Shown in pieces: positions 34,922-45,269 of a stretch of DNA of 64,000 nucleotides. The first letter of the stretch is position 1; each line of letters begins with the position of its first letter. Made by a program: the position numbers and the translations under genes. The stretch is from positions 62,001 through 126,000 of the forward strand of contig NZ_VAUW01000012.1 in assembly GCF_005771495.1 (NCBI RefSeq), read 5' to 3'. The notes under the pieces were generated by a model. It was not told where the DNA came from. It searched no databases and saw only the letters and a list, made by a program, of their open reading frames with translations. This DNA comes from Maribacter sp. ACAM166 (GTDB taxonomy: Bacteria > Bacteroidota > Bacteroidia > Flavobacteriales > Flavobacteriaceae).

Positions 34922-35734
34922 ATGGACAAATTACCAAAGATTGCATTACCTGCAATATTTATTTTTATTGTATTGATTATAGGAATATCAAAATCTACCG
35001 TCACCATAGACTCAGGTCAGGCAGGGGTTTTATATAAAACGTTTGGAGGAGGTGTTGTCACCGATGAGGCTCCAATGGGTGAGGGATTTCATATGGTAGC
35101 TCCTTGGAATCGGGTGACTATTTATGAAGTACGACAACAAGAAGTTCTTGAACAAATGAATGTATTGTCAAGTAATGGTCTGGATATTAAACTGGAAGCA
35201 TCTGCTTGGTTTGAACCAATACGTAAGGATTTAGGGAAATTGCATCAAGAAAAGGGACAAGATTATATACAAAGGGTTCTTTTGCCAACAATTAGATCAG
35301 CAGCTCGTTCAGTGGTTGGGCGATATACACCAGAACAATTGTACTCGAGTAAAAGAGATGCAATCCAACAAGAGATTTTTGACGAGACTCAGAAAATAGT
35401 GGAAGGACAATATATTCAATTGAATGAAATACTTGTAAGAGATGTTACATTGCCCCCGACTATAAAGGATGCTATCGAGAGAAAATTAAAGCAAGAACAA
35501 GAATCATTGGAATATCAATTTCGATTAGTTACCGCTAAAAAAGAGGCTGAAAAAGTTACCATTGAAGCACAAGGTAAAGCAGATGCTAACCGTATTTTAA
35601 GTGCGTCTTTAAATGATCAAATTTTAAAGGATAAAGGAATCGATGCTACCTTAAAATTAGCAGAATCACCTAATTCTAAAGTAGTCATTGTAGGCGGTAG
35701 CGACGGACTACCACTAATTTTAGGAGATAACTAA
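34922..35734 (+). CDS. prohibitin/SPFH (band 7) family protein
   Basis: 270 residues. One N-terminal membrane anchor (about 7-24) is followed by the SPFH domain (STVTIDSGQAGVLYKTFGG) and a long helical coiled-coil region with an Ala/Glu-rich end (KKEAEKVTIEAQGKADANRI). Such proteins form large ring assemblies in membranes and help regulate membrane proteases or organise lipids. It is probably co-transcribed with the VWA gene. Confidence 0.9.
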   Translation: MDKLPKIALPAIFIFIVLIIGISKSTVTIDSGQAGVLYKTFGGGVVTDEAPMGEGFHMVAPWNRVTIYEVRQQEVLEQMNVLSSNGLDIKLEASAWFEPIRKDLGKLHQEKGQDYIQRVLLPTIRSAARSVVGRYTPEQLYSSKRDAIQQEIFDETQKIVEGQYIQLNEILVRDVTLPPTIKDAIERKLKQEQESLEYQFRLVTAKKEAEKVTIEAQGKADANRILSASLNDQILKDKGIDATLKLAESPNSKVVIVGGSDGLPLILGDN

Positions 35735-35776
35735 AGTACTACTAGAACGTTTTTTTGATTCATTTTAAACATTTGT

Positions 35777-35807
35777 TTTGTGAAATCAAAAATACGTTTT
35801 ACTTTTA
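35777..35807 (+). promoter_or_regulatory. promoter of the histidine operon
   Basis: TTTG (35777-35780) and TACTTTTA (35800-35807) are separated by 19 bases, the ideal Bacteroidota -33/-7 spacing; the -7 box differs from TAnnTTTG only in its last base. The predicted transcript start is at about 35811-35814, next to the leader-peptide ATG at 35815. Confidence 0.7.
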
Positions 35808-35814
35808 CATCAGA

Positions 35815-35868
35815 ATGAAAAACAGAACTACACATCATCATTTCTATACAGACGCTCAGGCGAGGTAG
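35815..35868 (+). CDS. hisL: his operon leader peptide
   Basis: 17 codons encode MKNRTTHHHFYTDAQAR, with three consecutive CAT histidine codons at 35833-35841 and TAG at 35866. It sits between a promoter and a terminator just upstream of hisG, the classical arrangement for ribosome-mediated attenuation. The 3' half of the leader (35854-35866) is itself the antiterminator strand. The peptide has no function beyond its translation, as in enteric his and phe leaders. It is too short for automatic gene calling. Confidence 0.9.
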   Translation: MKNRTTHHHFYTDAQAR

Positions 35869-35930
35869 AAATGTATTGTAGTAGTACAACATATTTTAAA
35901 ACCCGTTTGAGCAATCAAACGGGTTTTGTA
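35854..35930 (+). promoter_or_regulatory. his attenuator: competing antiterminator and terminator stems
   Basis: The terminator is AAAACCCGTTTGA (35898-35910), loop GCAA, and its exact complement (35915-35927), then T-rich sequence. The antiterminator pairs GCTCAGGCGAGGT (35854-35866) with ACCCGTTTGAGC (35901-35912), giving 12 pairs with two G-U wobbles and one bulged A. The two share the left terminator arm and exclude each other. Stalling at the His codons would free 35854-35866 and let the operon be read; fast translation to TAG 35866 would cover it and allow termination. Confidence 0.85.
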
Positions 35931-35960
35931 TTTCATCCAGTTTTGATTGCCAAGCATTAA

Positions 35961-36827
35961 ATGAAACAAATGACAAAAATTAGAATTGCTATTCAGAAAT
36001 CAGGAAGGTTAAACGAAGAATCCCTTCAAATTTTAAAAGATTGTGGTATCTCAATCGATAATGGGAAAGAACAGTTAAAGGCATCTTCAAGAAATTTCCC
36101 TATGGAGGTGTTCTATCTTAGAAATGGTGATATTCCTCAATATCTAAGGGATGGTGTAGTCGATATCGCTATTATTGGAGAAAATGTTTTGGTTGAAAAA
36201 GGGGAAGATATTACCATTGCTGAAAAACTTGGTTTTTCGAAATGTAAAGTTTCTCTAGCGGTACCTAAGTCCTTCAAATATAACTCGGTATTGGATTTTG
36301 AAGGGAAACGTATTGCAACATCGTATCCAAATACCGTAATCAATTATTTGAAAGAAAAAGGGGTACGTGCTGAATTACACATTATTAGTGGTTCTGTAGA
36401 AATTGCCCCAAATATTGGTTTGGCCGATGCAATCTGTGATATTGTCTCTAGTGGAAGCACCCTGTTCAAAAATAATTTGAAAGAAGTCGAAGTAATGCTT
36501 ACAAGTGAAGCAGTATTGGCCGTTTCTCCAAAAATTTCTGAAGAGCGCAAAGGCTTACTAGAGAAATTGCAGTTTCGTATTCAGTCAGTTTTAAGAGCTA
36601 GAGGTTCTAAATATGTGTTACTCAACGCTCCAAATGAAAAGCTAGATGGAGTTTTAAGTCTATTGCCCGGAATGAGAAGTCCGACCGTACTTCCGTTAGC
36701 TGAAGAAGGTTGGAGCTCTGTTCACACGGTTATCAAGAAAGATTCTTTTTGGGAAGTTATCGATGAGTTGAAAAAAGTGGGAGCAGAAGGAATTTTGGTT
36801 TGCCCTATTGAGAAGATGGTATTGTAA
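35961..36827 (+). CDS. hisG: ATP phosphoribosyltransferase (long form)
   Basis: 288 residues; ATG at 35961 and 35970 are both possible starts. The catalytic domain begins IRIAIQKSGRLNEES and the C-terminal region (about 215-288) is the ACT-like regulatory domain of long-form HisG, which binds histidine for feedback inhibition. It catalyses the first step of histidine synthesis from ATP and PRPP. It is the first structural gene after the attenuator. Confidence 0.97.
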   Translation: MKQMTKIRIAIQKSGRLNEESLQILKDCGISIDNGKEQLKASSRNFPMEVFYLRNGDIPQYLRDGVVDIAIIGENVLVEKGEDITIAEKLGFSKCKVSLAVPKSFKYNSVLDFEGKRIATSYPNTVINYLKEKGVRAELHIISGSVEIAPNIGLADAICDIVSSGSTLFKNNLKEVEVMLTSEAVLAVSPKISEERKGLLEKLQFRIQSVLRARGSKYVLLNAPNEKLDGVLSLLPGMRSPTVLPLAEEGWSSVHTVIKKDSFWEVIDELKKVGAEGILVCPIEKMVL

Positions 36828-36949: not shown

Positions 36950-38233
36950 ATGAATAAAATTTATAATCCCAAAAGAGAAGACTGGAAAGACGTTCTAAAA
37001 CGTCCTACCCAAACGGTAGCAGATATTGAAGGATTGGTTAATGTTATTTTTAAAGAAGTAGCCCAAGCTGGTGATGTCACGTTAAAGAAATACACGCAAA
37101 AGTTTGATAAGGTCTACCAGGAAGATATGTTGGTGTCCGAATCTGAAATTGTAGAAGCTAAAGATTTAGTTTCTAATAATTTGAAAGAGGCTATTCTATT
37201 GGCTAAATCGAATATAGAAGTATTTCATAGAGCTCAAAAAACGGATAAGGTAGAAGTGGAAACGGTAAAGGGTGTTTTATGTTGGCAAGAAAAACGGCCT
37301 ATTCAAAAAGTCGGACTTTATATTCCTGGGGGTACGGCGCCTTTGTTTTCAACAATTTTGATGCTGGCGGTACCCGCTGCTATTGCTGGCTGCAAAGAAA
37401 TTGTGCTTTGTTCTCCTCCAGATAAAGAAGGGAAACTAAACCCTGCTATATTATATACCGCTAATTTATGTGGAGTTACTAAAATTGTAAAAGTAGGTGG
37501 GATACAGGCGATTGCGGGAATGACCTTTGGGACAAAGAGTATTCCACAGGTTTATAAAATTTTCGGACCAGGAAATCAATATGTTACCGTAGCCAAGCAA
37601 ATTGCTACAAAACATGGGGTAGCTATCGATATGCCTGCTGGTCCATCAGAATTATTAGTTGTGGCAGATGATTCGGCGAATGCTTCATTTGTAGCATCAG
37701 ATTTATTGAGTCAAGCAGAGCATGGCATTGACAGTCAGGTTATTTTAGTATCAACTTCACAATCATTGATTAATGCTGTTGAAAAGGAGGTTGAATTGCA
37801 ATTAGAAGATTTACCCCGTAAAGAAATTGCAAGACAAGCCATTGCCAACAGTAAACTTATTTATGTTGAAAGCGACCAAATAGCCATTGATTTAATTAAC
37901 GAATATGGTCCTGAACACTATATAGTCTGCGTAGAAAACGAAGATTTTTATATTGACAACACACAAAACGCTGGTTCAGTATTTATCGGTAATTATACAC
38001 CTGAAAGTGCGGGAGATTACGCATCAGGAACCAATCATACCCTACCTACCAATGGATATGCCAAGCAGTATAGTGGTGTGAATTTAGATAGTTTCTTGAA
38101 GAATATGACATTTCAGAAAATATCAGAAGAAGGCATTCAGTCCATTGGTAATGCAGTAGAATTAATGGCAGAGGCAGAAGGGCTACAAGCGCATAAAAAT
38201 GCGGTTACGTTGCGATTAAATAGTTTAAAATAA
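36950..38233 (+). CDS. hisD: histidinol dehydrogenase
   Basis: 427 residues from ATG 36950, the usual size; the frame opens at 36884 through a gap containing a repeat-like CAACTATCAAC stretch. Signatures are KIFGPGNQYVTVAK, DMPAGPSELLV, SQAEHGIDSQV and GTNHTLPT, the last two holding zinc and catalytic residues. It oxidises histidinol to histidine in two NAD-dependent steps. Confidence 0.97.
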   Translation: MNKIYNPKREDWKDVLKRPTQTVADIEGLVNVIFKEVAQAGDVTLKKYTQKFDKVYQEDMLVSESEIVEAKDLVSNNLKEAILLAKSNIEVFHRAQKTDKVEVETVKGVLCWQEKRPIQKVGLYIPGGTAPLFSTILMLAVPAAIAGCKEIVLCSPPDKEGKLNPAILYTANLCGVTKIVKVGGIQAIAGMTFGTKSIPQVYKIFGPGNQYVTVAKQIATKHGVAIDMPAGPSELLVVADDSANASFVASDLLSQAEHGIDSQVILVSTSQSLINAVEKEVELQLEDLPRKEIARQAIANSKLIYVESDQIAIDLINEYGPEHYIVCVENEDFYIDNTQNAGSVFIGNYTPESAGDYASGTNHTLPTNGYAKQYSGVNLDSFLKNMTFQKISEEGIQSIGNAVELMAEAEGLQAHKNAVTLRLNSLK

Positions 38234-38235
38234 TT

Positions 38236-38280
38236 GTCATTTCAGCTATGCCTACCTGCTAAAGAGGTAGACTCAATGAC
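38236..38280. repeat. palindromic element between hisD and hisC
   Basis: GTCATT (38236-38241) and AATGAC (38275-38280) enclose an inner pair CTACCT/AGGTAG (38252-38257 and 38265-38270). The whole 64-base gap can fold as a long interrupted hairpin. It is similar in style, but not clearly in sequence, to the repeats at 43726 and 44562. Confidence 0.45.
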
Positions 38281-38297
38281 CTTACAGTAATGAATTA

Positions 38298-39356
38298 ATG
38301 AATTTCAATTTAGATAGAATAACAAGAGAAAACGTGAAGGGTTTAAGTCCGTATTCCTCAGCACGAGATGAGTATGTGTCCGATGGGTCTATGATGGTTT
38401 TTTTAGATGCGAATGAGAATCCGTTCGAAAATGGTGTCAATCGATATCCGGATCCACAACAACGAGCCTTAAAAACTATAGTAGCTGAACAGAAGGGCAT
38501 TAAATGCGAAAATATTCTATTAGGCAATGGTAGTGATGAAGTGTTAGATTTATTGTTCAGAGCATTTTGTGAGCCTAAAGAGGATAACATCATCACCCTG
38601 CCTCCAACCTATGGCATGTATAAAGTCTTATCTGGTATTAACGTGGTTGAAAACAGAGAAGTTTTATTGACCGATGAATATCAACCCAATGTATCTGCAA
38701 TAAAAGAACAGATTAATAGCAATACTAAATTGTTGTTTATCTGTTCGCCAAATAACCCTACAGGAAATAGTTTTTCTAAGGAACGCATTCAAGAACTGTT
38801 AGAATCTTTTAATGGCCTAGTTGTTATTGATGAAGCGTATATTGATTTTTCATTGGAAGAAAGTTGGACTTCTAAATTAGCGAAGTACCCTAATTTAATA
38901 GTGACTCAAACCTTATCTAAAGCATATGGTATGGCGGGTATACGTTTGGGTATTTGTATAGCTTCCGCAGAAATCATTTCTGTATTGAATAAAATAAAAC
39001 CACCGTATAATGTAAATCAGTTGACTCAAGAACGAGCATTAAATAGGGTGTTGGACCAAAAATCTGTTCAAACAGAGGTAGCAACTATTTTAGCCGAACG
39101 GAAAAAGTTAATTACAACATTAGAAACGGTTTCATTTGTATCTAATATATACCCAACAGACGCCAATTTTATTTTAGTGAAAGTAGATGATGCTACCAAA
39201 CGCTACAATCAATTGCTAGAAAAGAGAATTGTAGTAAGAAACCGAACAACTCAACCATTATGCGAAAATACGTTGCGTTTTACGGTGGGGACATCCGAAG
39301 AAAATAGTAAAATAATTACCGCTTTAAAAACATTATCAAATTCATATGGAAAGTAA
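38298..39356 (+). CDS. hisC: histidinol-phosphate aminotransferase
   Basis: 352 residues, a class I/II PLP aminotransferase. The PLP lysine is in [16 protein letters not shown], preceded by SPNNPTGN and [10 protein letters not shown]. It converts imidazole acetol phosphate to histidinol phosphate. Its last 11 bases overlap hisB. Confidence 0.96.
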
Positions 39357-40488
39357 AAAACGTGTATTGTTTATTGACCGTGACGGTACCATGATTAAAG
39401 AAACTGTTGATGAGCAGATAGATGCTTTTGAAAAGATGATATTTTATCCAAAAGCCTTTTCCTTTCTGGGTAAAATAGCTAAAGAGCTAGATTATGAATT
39501 GGTAATGATTACGAATCAGGATGGCTTGGGTACTGATGTTTTCCCGGAAGATACATTTTGGCCGGTTCATAATTTCATTCTTAAATCTTTCGAAAATGAA
39601 GGGGTCTTCTTTGATAAGGTATTTTTAGATCGAACTTTTCCACATGAAAATGCTAATACTAGAAAACCTGGAACTGGATTGTTGACGGAGTATTTTTCTG
39701 AAGCGTATGATTTGGAAAACTCCTTTGTTATAGGTGACCGATTAACGGACATGGAATTGGCTAAGAACCTTGGCTCTAAGGGTATTTTTATTAATGATGA
39801 AACGAACTTAGGTACAGGAGAAATCACTGTGAAACGCGATGAATTAGATCCTTATATCGCTTTTGAGGATAATGATTGGGAGCAAATTTATGAGTTTTTA
39901 AAATTGAAGAACAGAACGGCTGAAATTCATAGAAAAACCAATGAAACTGATATTGTCATAAAACTCAATTTAGACGGAATAGGTAGAAGTGATATCAAAA
40001 CCGGATTAGCTTTTTTCGACCACATGTTGGATCAATTGGCACGTCACGGTCAGATGGATTTGACCATTAAGGTAGATGGTGATTTAGAAGTAGATGAGCA
40101 CCATACCATTGAAGATACGGGTATTGCCCTCGGAGAAGTTTTTAATACTGCCCTTGGTAATAAATTAGGGATTGAGCGATATGGTTTTTGCTTGCCAATG
40201 GATGATTGTTTGGCGCAGGTAGCAATCGATTTTGGAGGTCGTAATTGGCTGGTTTGGGATGCCGATTTTAAACGTGAGAAAGTAGGGGATATGCCTACCG
40301 AAATGTTCCATCACTTTTTTAAATCGTTCACCGATGGCGCCAAAGCTAATTTGAACATCAAAGCAGAAGGTACCAACGAACACCATAAAATAGAAGCCAT
40401 CTTTAAAGCTTTTGCAAAAAGCATAAAAATGGCCGTAAAAAGAGATGTAGAGAAAATGGTATTACCCAGTACCAAGGGAATTCTATAG
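39346..40488 (+). CDS. hisB: bifunctional histidinol-phosphatase / imidazoleglycerol-phosphate dehydratase
   Basis: 380 residues. The N-terminal HAD phosphatase (about 1-170) has the nucleophile motif [12 protein letters not shown] and a Cys/His-type metal region with [10 protein letters not shown]. The C-terminal IGPD (about 190-380) has [10 protein letters not shown] and [13 protein letters not shown], the manganese-binding histidines. It catalyses two non-consecutive steps. The start lies inside the end of hisC. Confidence 0.97.
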
Positions 40489-40554
40489 TAGTACTAAGTA
40501 TGGCGTACAAAGTCTTATGCTCACAAAATTTACTTTAGACTTAATACTTAAATA

Positions 40555-41136
40555 ATGAAAATTGTTATCATAAATTACGGAGCGGGAAACATTCAAAGCA
40601 TTAAGTTCGCTATTAAGCGCTTAGGTTATGATGCAGTGTTAAGCAGTGATGTTTCTGAAATACGAAATGCCGATAAAGTTATATTTCCCGGTGTTGGCGA
40701 GGCAAGTTCTGCCATGAAAAAGCTTAGGGGTTGCAGTCTAGATGAAATTATACCAACCTTAAAACAACCAGTACTCGGTATTTGTTTGGGCATGCAACTC
40801 ATGTGCAACTCATCTGAAGAAGGTCATACAATCGGACTTGGTATTTTTGATGTGGATGTTGTTAAGTTTGATTCTTCTGAGAAAGTCCCACAAATAGGAT
40901 GGAATCAGATTAATAATTTGAAATCCGATTTATTCGAAGGAGTAACTGAAAACGAACATATTTATTTAGTGCATAGTTTTTATGCTCCGTTGTGTGCAGA
41001 AACGTTAGCTGAATGTTCTTACGGAGTTGATTATAGTGCCGCCCTACGAAAAGATAATTTTTATGGGACTCAATTTCACCCGGAAAAGAGCAGTGATGTC
41101 GGTGAAAAGATTCTCGAGAATTTTTTGAACATGTAA
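40555..41136 (+). CDS. hisH: imidazole glycerol phosphate synthase, glutamine amidotransferase subunit
   Basis: 193 residues, a class I glutamine amidotransferase. The nucleophile is in LGICLGMQLM and the His-Glu pair is in TQFHPEKSS. It supplies ammonia to HisF. Its stop overlaps the start of the following GNAT gene (taatg), so translation is coupled. Confidence 0.97.
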   Translation: MKIVIINYGAGNIQSIKFAIKRLGYDAVLSSDVSEIRNADKVIFPGVGEASSAMKKLRGCSLDEIIPTLKQPVLGICLGMQLMCNSSEEGHTIGLGIFDVDVVKFDSSEKVPQIGWNQINNLKSDLFEGVTENEHIYLVHSFYAPLCAETLAECSYGVDYSAALRKDNFYGTQFHPEKSSDVGEKILENFLNM

Positions 41137-41558
41137 TGGAACAAGAATATTATATTTCCACGGATAAAAACCAATTGAATGTTGCTGCTATTCGACAGTT
41201 CATTACCACTTCGTATTGGGGTGATAATAGAACTTTAAATGAAGTAAAACAAACGATTGAAAACTCATATTGTTTTGGCATATATACCCAGAAAAATGAG
41301 CAAATTGGTTTTGCAAGGGTAGTTACCGATTATATTTATTTTGGATATTTTATGGACGTTATTATTTTTGAAAAATTCCAAGGAAAGGGGTTTGGTAAAA
41401 TATTAATAGAGCATATGTTAGAAGATGCTACCATAAAAAAACTTAAAACTTTAGCTTTAAAAACAAAGGACGCCCATGCATTATATGAGCGCTACGGATT
41501 TAATAAAATAGGAGATTCACCTTTGTGGATGTCAATTGATAGACAAATATTAGAGTAG
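41136..41558 (+). CDS. GNAT-family N-acetyltransferase embedded in the his operon
   Basis: 140 residues. The acetyl-CoA loop is FQGKGFGKILIEHML, and the C-terminus carries the ALYERYGFNKIG strand-helix typical of GNATs. The substrate is unknown. It overlaps hisH by one base and is three bases from hisA, so it is certainly in the operon. Its role in or beside histidine synthesis is open. Confidence 0.88.
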   Translation: MEQEYYISTDKNQLNVAAIRQFITTSYWGDNRTLNEVKQTIENSYCFGIYTQKNEQIGFARVVTDYIYFGYFMDVIIFEKFQGKGFGKILIEHMLEDATIKKLKTLALKTKDAHALYERYGFNKIGDSPLWMSIDRQILE

Positions 41559-41561
41559 AAA

Positions 41562-42290
41562 ATGAGAATTATTCCAGCTATAGATATTATTGATGGTAAG
41601 TGTGTTCGACTTTCGAAAGGAGATTATACAACCAAAAAAATATATAATGAGAATCCGTTAGAGGTTGCCAAAGAATTTGAGTCACATGGTATTAAACATT
41701 TACATTTGGTTGATTTAGATGGTGCCAAGTCCAAACACATTGTCAATCATAAAGTGCTGGAATCAATAGCGTCACAGACCAAGCTGCAAATCGATTTTGG
41801 TGGCGGATTAAAAACCGATGAAGATTTGCGTATTGCTTTTGAAAGTGGTGCTAAACAGATTACGGGTGGTAGTATTGCTGTAAAAGATGCAGAGACTTTT
41901 TTAGGATGGATTGAAAAACATGGAGCAGATAAAATAATATTAGGTGCTGATGCGATGGATGAAAAAGTAGCAGTTTCAGGATGGCAGGAGGAATCTAAGG
42001 AAGAGCTGATTCCCTTTATTCAGTTGTATCAAACCAAAGGAATACACTATGTAATTTGTACTGATATTAGTAAGGATGGTATGTTAGAAGGTCCTTCGTT
42101 TGAATTGTATCAACGTATCTTGGAACAGACGAAAAATTTAAAACTAATTGCTTCCGGAGGAATTTCTACTTTTGATGAATTGCCTAAATTGGCTAAAATG
42201 GGATGCGAGGGTACCATAATCGGTAAGGCAATCTATGAAAATCGAATTAGTTTGAAGCAGTTAGAAACTTATATTTTAAGCCATGGATAA
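41562..42290 (+). CDS. hisA: ProFAR isomerase
   Basis: 242 residues, a beta/alpha barrel. It starts [20 protein letters not shown] and has the second phosphate motif [16 protein letters not shown]. It opens the ribose ring of ProFAR to give PRFAR. Its end overlaps the next gene by eight bases. Confidence 0.97.
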
Positions 42291-42807
42291 GGAAACACAG
42301 TTAGTTGAAGAATTGGTTAAAAATGCGCTGTACCGAATAGATGAGAATACGCGTATGATTAAAAAAAGCCTGACCGAGATTTCTGAGGAGGAAGTTTGGC
42401 AGAAACCAAACGCATCATTGAATAGCATAGCAAATCTACTATTACATTTATGTGGTAATATTTCACAATACATTATTTCTTCTTTAGGAGAAAATGAAGA
42501 TGACCGACAACGTGATGGTGAATTCTCAGCAATGGGCGGACTCACTAAAGTTGAAGTACTTGAGAAATTGGAAGATGTAGTTGATACAGCAAAACGAGTC
42601 ATTTTTGATGCCACTCCAAACCAATTGGTGAAAATGAGGTCGGTACAAGGGTTTTCATTATCAGGGGTAGGGATTATTCTTCATGCTGTTGAACACTATT
42701 CTTATCATACTGGGCAAATTGCTTTTTGGGTAAAAGAATTGAAGAATAAAGATTTGGGCTTTTATGATGGGATGGATTTGAATTTCAAAAATGGTACTAC
42801 GTTATGA
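42283..42807 (+). CDS. DinB-like protein (DUF1572 type) embedded in the his operon
   Basis: 174 residues of four-helix-bundle character. Histidines that could form the DinB metal site lie in [13 protein letters not shown] and [15 protein letters not shown]. It overlaps hisA by eight bases and precedes hisF by 92 bases. The family includes metal-dependent thiol transferases and proteins of unknown activity. Its link to histidine synthesis is unknown. Confidence 0.83.
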
Positions 42808-42899
42808 GTACAAAAAACGAGGTAATTGGTGCAAAAAAACAAAAATAAAGAACAGACAAATACTTGGTACTTTTTACGCTGTACTAAATACTGAAAATT

Positions 42900-43655
42900 A
42901 TGTTAGCAAAAAGAATCATACCCTGCTTAGATATTAAAAACGGTAGAACCGTGAAAGGTATTAATTTCGTTGATTTACGTGATGCAGGAGATCCCGTAGA
43001 ACTGGCAGAAATCTATAGCAAAGAAGGTGCAGATGAATTGGTTTTTTTAGATATCTCTGCAACGGAACAAAAACGTAAAACCTTAGCGAATTTAGTATTT
43101 TGCGTAGCGGAAAAAGTAAATATTCCTTTTACCGTTGGTGGCGGCATTTCTTCTATTGAAGATGTAGATATTTTACTTCAGAACGGAGCTGATAAAGTAT
43201 CTATCAATTCCTCGGCCGTAAAGAATCCGCAACTAATTAATGATTTGTCGGCCAAATTCGGCTCGCAATGTATTGTGGTAGCCATAGATGCGAAACAGAT
43301 TGATGGTGAATGGATTGTACATTTAGTAGGTGGTAAAGTGCCTACTGAACGAAAATTGTTTGAGTGGGCCAAAGAAGTGGAAGAACGTGGTGCAGGTGAA
43401 ATATTATTTACCTCTATGGATCATGACGGCACAAAAGATGGCTTTGCTAATGAAGCGCTTGCAAAACTATCCACTAATCTGAATATTCCTATTATAGCTT
43501 CGGGTGGAGCAGGTAACAAGCAGCATTTTACGGATACCTTTGTAAAAGGTAAAGCAGATGCAGCATTGGCTGCCAGTGTATTTCACTTTAAGGAAATAGG
43601 AATTAAAGAGTTAAAGGAAGAGTTGAAGGAAAACGGAATTCCTATTAGGCTATAG
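42900..43655 (+). CDS. hisF: imidazole glycerol phosphate synthase, cyclase subunit
   Basis: 251 residues, a beta/alpha barrel related to HisA. It begins [18 protein letters not shown] and carries the catalytic Asp in LDISAT and [11 protein letters not shown]. With HisH it forms IGP and AICAR from PRFAR. The usual HisA-HisF neighbourhood is interrupted here by the DinB gene. Confidence 0.97.
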
Positions 43656-43725
43656 TTGTAAGTTCACTTTGGCTTGTGCTCAGTAAGGGTAGATGAAAAG
43701 TAGCATGTGACTGTTATTTTGGAGG

Positions 43726-43769
43726 CAGTCGAATTGATTGGAACAGAGAAGGTCTTCGACTGTGCGCAG
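43726..43769. repeat. degenerate palindromic intergenic repeat, copy A
   Basis: The unit reads AGTCGAA, six bases, GGAAC, then AGGTCTTCGACT and GCGCAG. AGTCGAA (43727-43733) is the complement of TTCGACT (43755-43761), so it can fold. It aligns closely to copy B at 44562-44604. It lies in the gap between hisF and the racemase gene. Confidence 0.65.
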
Positions 43770-43800
43770 CCTTACAAATTGATAGAAAAGAGTATAAGTA

Positions 43801-44493
43801 ATGAAAAAAATAGGATTAATCGGCGGAATCACATGGCAGTCCACGCAATTATATTATCAGTTGCTAAATAGCAAGATAGCGGAAGAATTGGGTGGACAAA
43901 GCTCTTGTGAGTGTGTACTAGAATCTGTGAATTTTGAGGATATAGCCGAAAAACAGACAAAAGGTAATTGGGATACCCTTCATGCCCAAATGACGGAAAT
44001 TGCATTACGACTTCAAAAGGCTGGTGCCGAAGTTATTCTAATCTGCGCCAACACCATGCACTTAAGTGTGCCTGCCATTAAAGAAAAGATAACCATTCCT
44101 TTATTACATATAGCTGAAGTAGCTGGTAAAGTAGTTAAAGAAAAGGGATGTAAAAAAGTAGTGTTACTGGGAACAAAATATACCATGGAACTGGACTTTT
44201 ACAAAGACATTCTTAAAAACCAGTTTGGTATCGAAGTATTGGTTCCAAATGAGGCGGACCGAAACATTGTACATCATATCATTTATGAGGAGCTTTCAAA
44301 AGGAATTATATCTGAAGACTCAAAACATGAGTATTTGAACATCATAAAGAAGGCTGAAAAAGAAGGCGCACAAGGAGTGATTTTAGGCTGTACGGAAATA
44401 CCATTATTAATTCAACAAGAAGATTGTGATATAGTGGTTATTGATACCACCAAAGAACATGCCTATGCCGCGGTGGCCTTTGCACTTTCATAA
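43801..44493 (+). CDS. aspartate/glutamate racemase family protein
   Basis: 230 residues. The two catalytic cysteines of the family are present, Cys82 in ICANTMH and Cys197 in LGCTEIP. The N-terminal IGLIGGITWQST is the YgeA-like signature. It is predicted to racemise aspartate, glutamate or a related amino acid without cofactor. It lies between hisF and hisIE with palindromic repeats on both sides, which suggests later insertion into the operon. Confidence 0.9.
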   Translation: MKKIGLIGGITWQSTQLYYQLLNSKIAEELGGQSSCECVLESVNFEDIAEKQTKGNWDTLHAQMTEIALRLQKAGAEVILICANTMHLSVPAIKEKITIPLLHIAEVAGKVVKEKGCKKVVLLGTKYTMELDFYKDILKNQFGIEVLVPNEADRNIVHHIIYEELSKGIISEDSKHEYLNIIKKAEKEGAQGVILGCTEIPLLIQQEDCDIVVIDTTKEHAYAAVAFALS

Positions 44494-44561
44494 TTTGGTT
44501 GATGAAAAATGATAAAAAATTAAAACCTAATAACATCCTGAACAATCCTTGACGGGAAACG

Positions 44562-44604
44562 TAGTCGAAAGGAATGGAACTCGAAAGGTCTTTGACTCCA
44601 CTCA
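44562..44604. repeat. degenerate palindromic intergenic repeat, copy B
   Basis: It has the same order as copy A: AGTCGAA (44563-44569), six bases, GGAAC, then AGGTCTTTGACT and CTCA. It lies between the racemase gene and hisIE. The shared order and spacing make common origin much more likely than chance. Confidence 0.65.
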
Positions 44605-44645
44605 AATGGCATGTACTGGCAACAGGCTGACAAATAAAAAATATA

Positions 44646-45269
44646 ATGATTGAAAATAACATGAAATTTAATAACCCAAACTGGGAGAAAACGACTGACG
44701 GATTAATCCCTGCCATCATACAAGATGCCCGCACCAAAAATGTATTGATGCTAGGCTATATGAATGCGGAAGCGTTGGAGAAAACTCAAAAATCTAATAG
44801 AGTGACCTTTTACAGCCGCTCCAAGAAGCGTTTATGGACAAAAGGGGAAGAGAGTGGTAATTTCCTCAATCTTGTTACTATTAAAAATGACTGTGATAAT
44901 GATTCACTTCTTATAACTGTGAATCCAGTTGGTCCAACTTGCCATAAAGGAACGGATACCTGTTGGGAAGAAGAAAACACTTCTAATTTTGGTTTCTTCT
45001 CTGAACTGGAAAGTACGATAGAAGAGCGTCGTACCGCTGCGGATGGTAGTAAGTCTTATGTGGCCTCATTATTTGATAAAGGTATTAACAAGATTGCCCA
45101 AAAAGTAGGTGAGGAAGCTGTAGAAACGGTGATTGAAGCTATGGACAATAATGATGAATTATTCCTCTACGAAAGTGGCGATTTACTTTTTCACTACCTT
45201 ATACTTTTACAGGCAAAAGGATTTACCTTGAAAGATATTGAGGCTGAGTTAATGAAGAGGAAAAAGTAA
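44646..45269 (+). CDS. hisIE: bifunctional phosphoribosyl-AMP cyclohydrolase / phosphoribosyl-ATP diphosphatase
   Basis: 207 residues. Residues 1-112 are HisI (VLMLGYMNAEAL, FYSRSKKRLWTKGEESGN and the zinc cysteines in NDCDNDS and GPTCHKGTDTCW). Residues about 118-207 are HisE (NKIAQKVGEEAVETVIEA). It catalyses steps two and three. ATG 44661 is an alternative start. It is the last gene of the operon, and the next gene converges. Confidence 0.96.
   Translation: MIENNMKFNNPNWEKTTDGLIPAIIQDARTKNVLMLGYMNAEALEKTQKSNRVTFYSRSKKRLWTKGEESGNFLNLVTIKNDCDNDSLLITVNPVGPTCHKGTDTCWEEENTSNFGFFSELESTIEERRTAADGSKSYVASLFDKGINKIAQKVGEEAVETVIEAMDNNDELFLYESGDLLFHYLILLQAKGFTLKDIEAELMKRKK

Follow-up and report, generated by a model that had tools for sequence, protein, structure and literature searches.

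How transcription of the histidine operon of Maribacter sp. ACAM166 is matched to the supply of histidine is the question raised by the short DNA segment ahead of hisG in the window, that is, in the whole 64,000-nt stretch analysed here, whose first letter is position 1 and on whose + strand all the features described below lie. An original prediction had placed a complete "class-I" histidine attenuator in this segment, a label that, to our knowledge, is not in use for attenuators. The organization of the locus and its comparison with related genomes make it very probable that the segment is a ribosome-mediated (leader-peptide) transcription attenuator of the his operon.

The gene at 35961-36827, which has an alternative in-frame ATG at 35970, is indeed hisG, as had been supposed: its product matches Pfam PF01634 (E 2.4e-49) and HisG_C (5e-30). 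It is the first gene of an operon whose remaining part (36956-45269) comprises hisD, an aminotransferase gene in the place of hisC, hisB, genes in the places of hisH, hisA and hisF, and an ORF (44646-45269) that we take to be hisIE-like. Gene names follow Pfam families, and those of hisC, hisH, hisA and hisF follow family and order. Three other ORFs are found among the his genes, at 41136-41558, 42283-42807 and 43801-44493; in this order they encode a GNAT acetyltransferase, a DinB/DUF1572 protein (Pfam) and, judged by eye, a racemase-like protein. On the other side, a co-directional gene encoding an SPFH/Band 7 protein (34922-35734) ends 80 nt before the ATG of the leader.

Between these two genes, a short His-rich ORF and an intrinsic terminator precede the first his gene, as in attenuators of this kind. 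The leader gene, of 17 codons, occupies 35815-35868 (ATG at 35815, stop codon TAG at 35866-35868) and encodes MKNRTTHHHFYTDAQAR; three consecutive CAT codons, codons 7-9, are located at 35833-35841, exactly as had been read from the sequence. When the terminator 3' arm is left out, the minimum-energy fold (-25.5 kcal/mol, z -6.8, equalled by 0 of 200 shuffles) is the antiterminator drawn in the original prediction: strand 2 (35854-35866), which coincides with the last leader codons as had been claimed, pairs with strand 3 (35901-35912, core CCCGTTTGA) through 12 pairs with a bulged A at 35863, and a central hairpin (35868-35897, formed by 35868-35874 with 35891-35897 and 35876-35880 with 35885-35889) closes it. 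Once the 3' arm is included, the terminator replaces the antiterminator (-38.3 kcal/mol, z -7.4, again 0 of 200 shuffles). The two structures have strand 3 in common and their pairing is mutually exclusive. By pattern scan the terminator extends over 35897-35928 (arms 35897-35910 and 35915-35928), with 14 pairs and a T-rich 3' end, and this hairpin pattern is found at one place in the whole genome. It had been expected at 35898-35927 as an overlapping, GC-rich hairpin; the overlap stands, but GC-rich is a loose description of a stem in which 5 of 14 pairs are G-C.

Conservation of the His codons and covariation in both stems among relatives had been proposed as a check. We took as close relatives the best 80 of 452 confirmed HisG matches, whose record names are mostly those of Flavobacteriaceae genera. 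A His leader stands ahead of hisG in all 80, with a run of HHH or HHHH except in L036 (YHH) and L058 (HQHH), so that the His codons are kept throughout; most of the peptides end in QAR, QAS or QAW. The terminator has a stem of 11-15 pairs in all 81 sequences (relatives and window), and hisD follows hisG in 79 of the 80 relatives, the exception (L021) being a locus cut short. The core CCCGTTTGA is present in 82 of 82 loci, two of which represent the window's own genome. Strand 3 is invariant among close relatives, while strands 2 and 4 (strand 4 being the terminator 3' arm) drift, mostly keeping G-U or A-U pairs, as would be expected if one strand has two partners. Because strand 3 does not vary at this distance, the stems of close relatives show changes in the outer strands only, mostly synonymous or G-U; both stems are kept there, but changes matched in all three strands appear only at greater distance. 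In L001-L003 and L032 an in-frame upstream ATG would extend the leader (e.g. MENTFYFYIIMKNR...), but this ATG falls within the predicted promoter.

The distribution of the unit was followed in two wider samples: 158 genomes drawn evenly from the class, 69 of them with hisG, and 149 genomes from the family, 129 with hisG, with 20 dinucleotide shuffles of each upstream region giving the chance level. A His leader precedes hisG in 126 of 129 family loci and 62 of 69 class loci, against 1.7% and 3.0% of the respective shuffles; leader and perfect-stem terminator occur together in 122 of 129 and 45 of 69, against 0.0% and 0.1%. No His leader was detected in three family loci (L155, L219, L227) and in seven class loci (L085, L093, L107, L120, L132, L140, L141), where the leader may have been lost, the operon may be ordered differently or the contig may be cut. 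The perfect-stem scan undercounts terminators: among the 24 of 69 class loci that fail the joint test, seven are those without a leader and at least six have an imperfect or differently shaped hairpin (L097, L105, L114, L116, L130 and L138, all scored as lacking a terminator). Other class loci, such as L106, L125, L126 and L128, have a His leader and seem to lack an intrinsic terminator, and control may perhaps be translational or Rho-dependent in them.

At these greater distances the three strands can be seen to change together. In 110 of the 122 loci from the family and 26 of the 45 from the class, strand 2 forms a better duplex with strand 3 than its shuffles do, no more than 5% of which pair equally well; 12 and 19 loci, respectively, fail at this level. 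The strands differ widely in sequence within the class (CCCGTTTGA type, GGCTTACC type and others), and the three-way match is still present in most of the 45 loci, being poor in L094, L117, L134, L139 and L144; when leader regions were exchanged among class loci, 24% of the foreign ones out-paired a locus's own with strand 3. Core positions were compared in 127 loci (122 of the family and 5 neighbours). Position 6 is C instead of T in 13 of them, and a G is found opposite in strand 2 in 13 of 13 and in strand 4 in 13 of 13. On a tree of 58 HisG proteins with few well-supported branches (58 of the 72 loci with a HisG region passed a length filter, which dropped the C-bearing L108, L151 and L157, 3 of the 13), two changes suffice to explain this difference, and the 13 of 13 therefore reflects mostly shared ancestry and not 13 events. 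The covariation looked for is present as matched changes, few of which arose independently within the family. L200 is the strongest individual case: its core departs twice from the usual one, and strands 2 and 4 both match each departure. The second, an A in strand 3 where G is usual, with T in strands 2 and 4, gives Val for the usual Ala of the leader.

The spacing between the His codons and the RNA structure is also fixed. A stalled ribosome has its leading edge about 15-16 nt beyond the P-site codon. The start of strand 2 falls 13 nt past the final His run in 111 of 127 loci, though the run is mostly three or four codons long, and the regulatory codons are thus placed as in an attenuator: with the usual footprint, a ribosome stalled at any His codon would leave strand 2 free, and one standing at the stop codon would cover it. 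A pause-type hairpin 1:2 can be folded in the window (35839-35873, 35839-35847 with 35865-35873) without above-chance conservation in relatives: strand-2 pairing is 0.43 against 0.43 in shuffled sequences over the 127 loci, and a second search gave 0.43 against 0.44, with good flanking arms in 5 of 62 loci (62 of 81 were used, the 19 others, in which the motif that places strand 2 was unmatched, being dropped). These comparisons do not support an enteric-style pause hairpin. The leader, the antiterminator and the terminator hold, but "complete" was too strong a word for an attenuator whose pause hairpin is foldable but unconserved.

The promoter that had been claimed calls for a distinction. 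A generic sigma-70 scan lists none on the + strand between 35194 and 36032; a promoter of the Bacteroidota type is likely present. It would consist of a -33-like element TTTTG (35776-35780) and, 19 nt past it, a -7 element TACTTTTA (35800-35807, consensus TAnnTTTG) ending 7 nt before the leader ATG. Among the 81 loci of the clade, a TAnnTTTG-like box ends 7 nt (55 loci) or 8 nt (11 loci) before the leader ATG in 66 and is 2 nt away in a 67th; the TTT of the upstream element is at the same place in 96-99% of these 67 aligned promoters. The remaining 14 loci belong to Aquimarina (13) and Kordia (one); a distance of 16-25 nt separates box and ATG in 13 of them, and L051 has no good box. In the window an equally scoring box, TACGTTTT (35793-35800), overlaps TACTTTTA; by eye, it is present in Zobellia- and Maribacter-like loci and absent from Muricauda-like loci. 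The base rate has to be kept in mind: of the 48 window ORFs that are 150 codons or longer, 6 show such a box no more than 11 nt from the first ATG. One box alone is therefore little proof, and it is the conservation of the box that carries the promoter claim. A rough scan of the family (122 loci with both parts) found a box with at least 5 of 6 matches in 102 loci, 33 of which have it no farther than 11 nt from the ATG; in the window it picked the equally scoring overlapping box, 14 nt away, and we rely on the clade-level scan of 81 loci. In the rough scan, longer distances between box and ATG are common among the family's other leaders and, with Aquimarina and Kordia, they indicate that the short form characterizes part of the family.

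In Flavobacterium psychrophilum the corresponding box is placed at -12 to -5 (PMC9723704). By this measure, a box that ends 7-8 nt upstream of the ATG should put the transcription start 3-4 nt ahead of the AUG, which in the window means a predicted start at 35812 and a predicted 5' UTR of 3 nt (35812-35814). The leader mRNA is accordingly predicted to be nearly leaderless, with a 5' UTR of 3-4 nt. Leaderless mRNAs make up 5.5% in F. psychrophilum (PMC9723704). For B. thetaiotaomicron, 5' UTRs shorter than 10 nt are put at about 3.7%.

Put together, these parts suggest the following switch. Transcription would begin a few nucleotides upstream of the leader AUG, with a ribosome following the RNA polymerase. 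When charged His-tRNA is short, the ribosome would stall at codons 7-9 with its leading edge just short of strand 2, which could then pair with strand 3 and let the polymerase continue into hisG. When charged His-tRNA is plentiful, the ribosome would proceed to the stop codon and cover strand 2; strand 3 would pair with strand 4, and transcription would end at about 35928.

Other explanations of the same segment have to be weighed. The hairpin could be the plain terminator of the SPFH/Band 7 gene and the short ORF a chance frame, and the proximity and direction of that gene, a homologue of which lies upstream in 66 of 80 relatives, would fit. In the other 14 relatives, however, the nearest upstream frame of at least 100 codons is on the opposite strand, and leader and terminator are still present, for which reason we rejected a terminator belonging to the upstream gene; moreover, leader and terminator accompany hisG throughout the class sample, and in a plain terminator neither strand 2 nor the spacing of the His codons would have any role. 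We consider this explanation highly improbable. The same low probability applies to a leader acting as a functional small His-rich protein, for example in metal binding, with an incidental RNA structure. The peptide is in fact alike over many genera, including its QAR/QAS/QAK-like tail, but its N-terminus varies among clades and the tail is missing from some loci that keep the RNA pairing: QA near the peptide end is absent from 20 of 127 loci that retain at least 7 of 8 strand-2 pairs, having been lost through stop codons, frame changes or substitutions. In L004, L005, L009, L177, L199 and L238 (L009 and L238 are probably one genome) a stop codon, TAG or TAA, replaces the Gln codon and the RNA strand is otherwise intact; in four of the 127 loci neither the QA tail nor good pairing of strand 2 is present. 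Since the tail is lost while the pairs are kept, selection seems to favour the RNA strand over the peptide tail, and the Val-for-Ala substitution of L200, which preserves pairing, tells against a functional peptide in the same way; this candidate was rejected on these grounds.

Slightly less remote, and still very unlikely, is a leader that works not through intrinsic termination but on hisG translation or through Rho-dependent termination. It would account for class members such as the four named above, with a His leader and no clear terminator. It is opposed by the perfect-stem hairpin with a T-rich end that separates the leader from hisG in 122 of 129 family loci, by the 32 nt that separate the end of the hairpin from the hisG start in the window, and by the imperfect or differently shaped hairpins of the six class loci named above. 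A T-box or another ligand-sensing riboswitch is the least probable alternative, with a chance close to nil. The his genes of Firmicutes and Actinobacteria are described as being under T-box control (PMC9413887), but no T-box or riboswitch family matches the window region up to E 5 or 20 relatives up to E 1, and a T-box was rejected for this reason.

The transcription attenuator that remains as the preferred reading is classic in its mechanism, long known from enterics. The enteric his attenuator (Rfam RF00514, His_leader) likewise has a His leader and an antiterminator and a terminator sharing a strand before hisG. It differs in that here the pause hairpin is not conserved, the predicted promoter leaves almost no 5' UTR, and most relatives have three or four His codons, against seven in the his leader of E. 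coli. No Rfam leader family matches the window region up to E 5. In 20 distant relatives, RF00514 gives sub-threshold matches, correctly placed and oriented, in three (best 36.7 bits in L144, gathering threshold 49), and RF00506 (Thr_leader) does so at the same place in four others, one of them better-scoring; weak Rfam matches therefore mean "attenuator-like" more than "His". The sub-cut-off Thr_leader matches over the His leader region are those of L113, L121, L130 (E 0.0002) and L212. A match of SSRC10 over the terminator (23.4 bits, gathering threshold 56) and five other sub-threshold Rfam matches in the window region were dismissed as chance.

Leader-peptide attenuation has already been suspected in a member of the same bacterial family: mapped 5' regions of F. 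psychrophilum gave "strong clues" of it upstream of amino-acid operons (PMC9723704), in a passage that names no operon and a paper from whose main text the word histidine is absent. In mycobacteria, polycysteine attenuators (Canestrari et al. 2020, described in PMC9031893) have an ORF that is read from a leaderless transcript; they are a likeness from another phylum, with Cys codons, and here the transcript is predicted to be nearly leaderless. The literature that we searched contained no his attenuator in Bacteroidota, and the wide survey of attenuation by Lopatovskaya et al. 2010 (cited in PMC4833913) may hold earlier predictions. With its predicted start so close to the AUG, the switch found here may be a leaderless variant of the attenuator.

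Similar leaders are found elsewhere in the same genome. The trpE gene (L277) is preceded by MNNLIVNTWWWNNLRTTT and a terminator-like hairpin, and ilvD (L276) by MKLKNIIINVVIVIPLKE and a terminator-like hairpin; by eye, an aromatic-rich ORF lies before the prephenate dehydratase gene (L283) and a Thr-containing ORF before the aspartate kinase gene (L278). These are probable Trp, Ile/Val, aromatic and Thr leader ORFs, respectively. The box lies 4-9 nt before the leader ATG in 19 of 23 trpE loci, mostly of one genus, and exactly 4 nt before it in 13 of 22 ilvD loci, where the scan missed the window genome's own; as the loci are closely related, they amount to few independent cases. The trpE and ilvD leaders of near relatives thus look similar to the his leader. 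One joint proposition is that the his, trp and ilv attenuators of this lineage are as a rule leaderless or nearly so, with transcription starting 0-4 nt before the AUG, and that histidine synthesis throughout the class (Bacteroidia) is ancestrally controlled by the His switch, the sequences of whose three strands have been rewritten; we hold it to be evenly balanced between true and false.

If it is true, a ribosome could load at once on the emerging RNA end and trail the polymerase closely without a pause hairpin. The comparative evidence suggests that an amino-acid operon is under the control of coupled translation and transcription in most members sampled from a class for which we found such control hardly documented, and coupling of this kind needs early and quick ribosome loading. 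The lineage scarcely uses Shine-Dalgarno signals. Their absence is also stated in PMC9723704. With Shine-Dalgarno initiation rare and the leader RNA apparently almost leaderless, the his attenuator of these bacteria would offer a small natural system in which initiation free of Shine-Dalgarno signals and the coupling of transcription and translation could both be measured.
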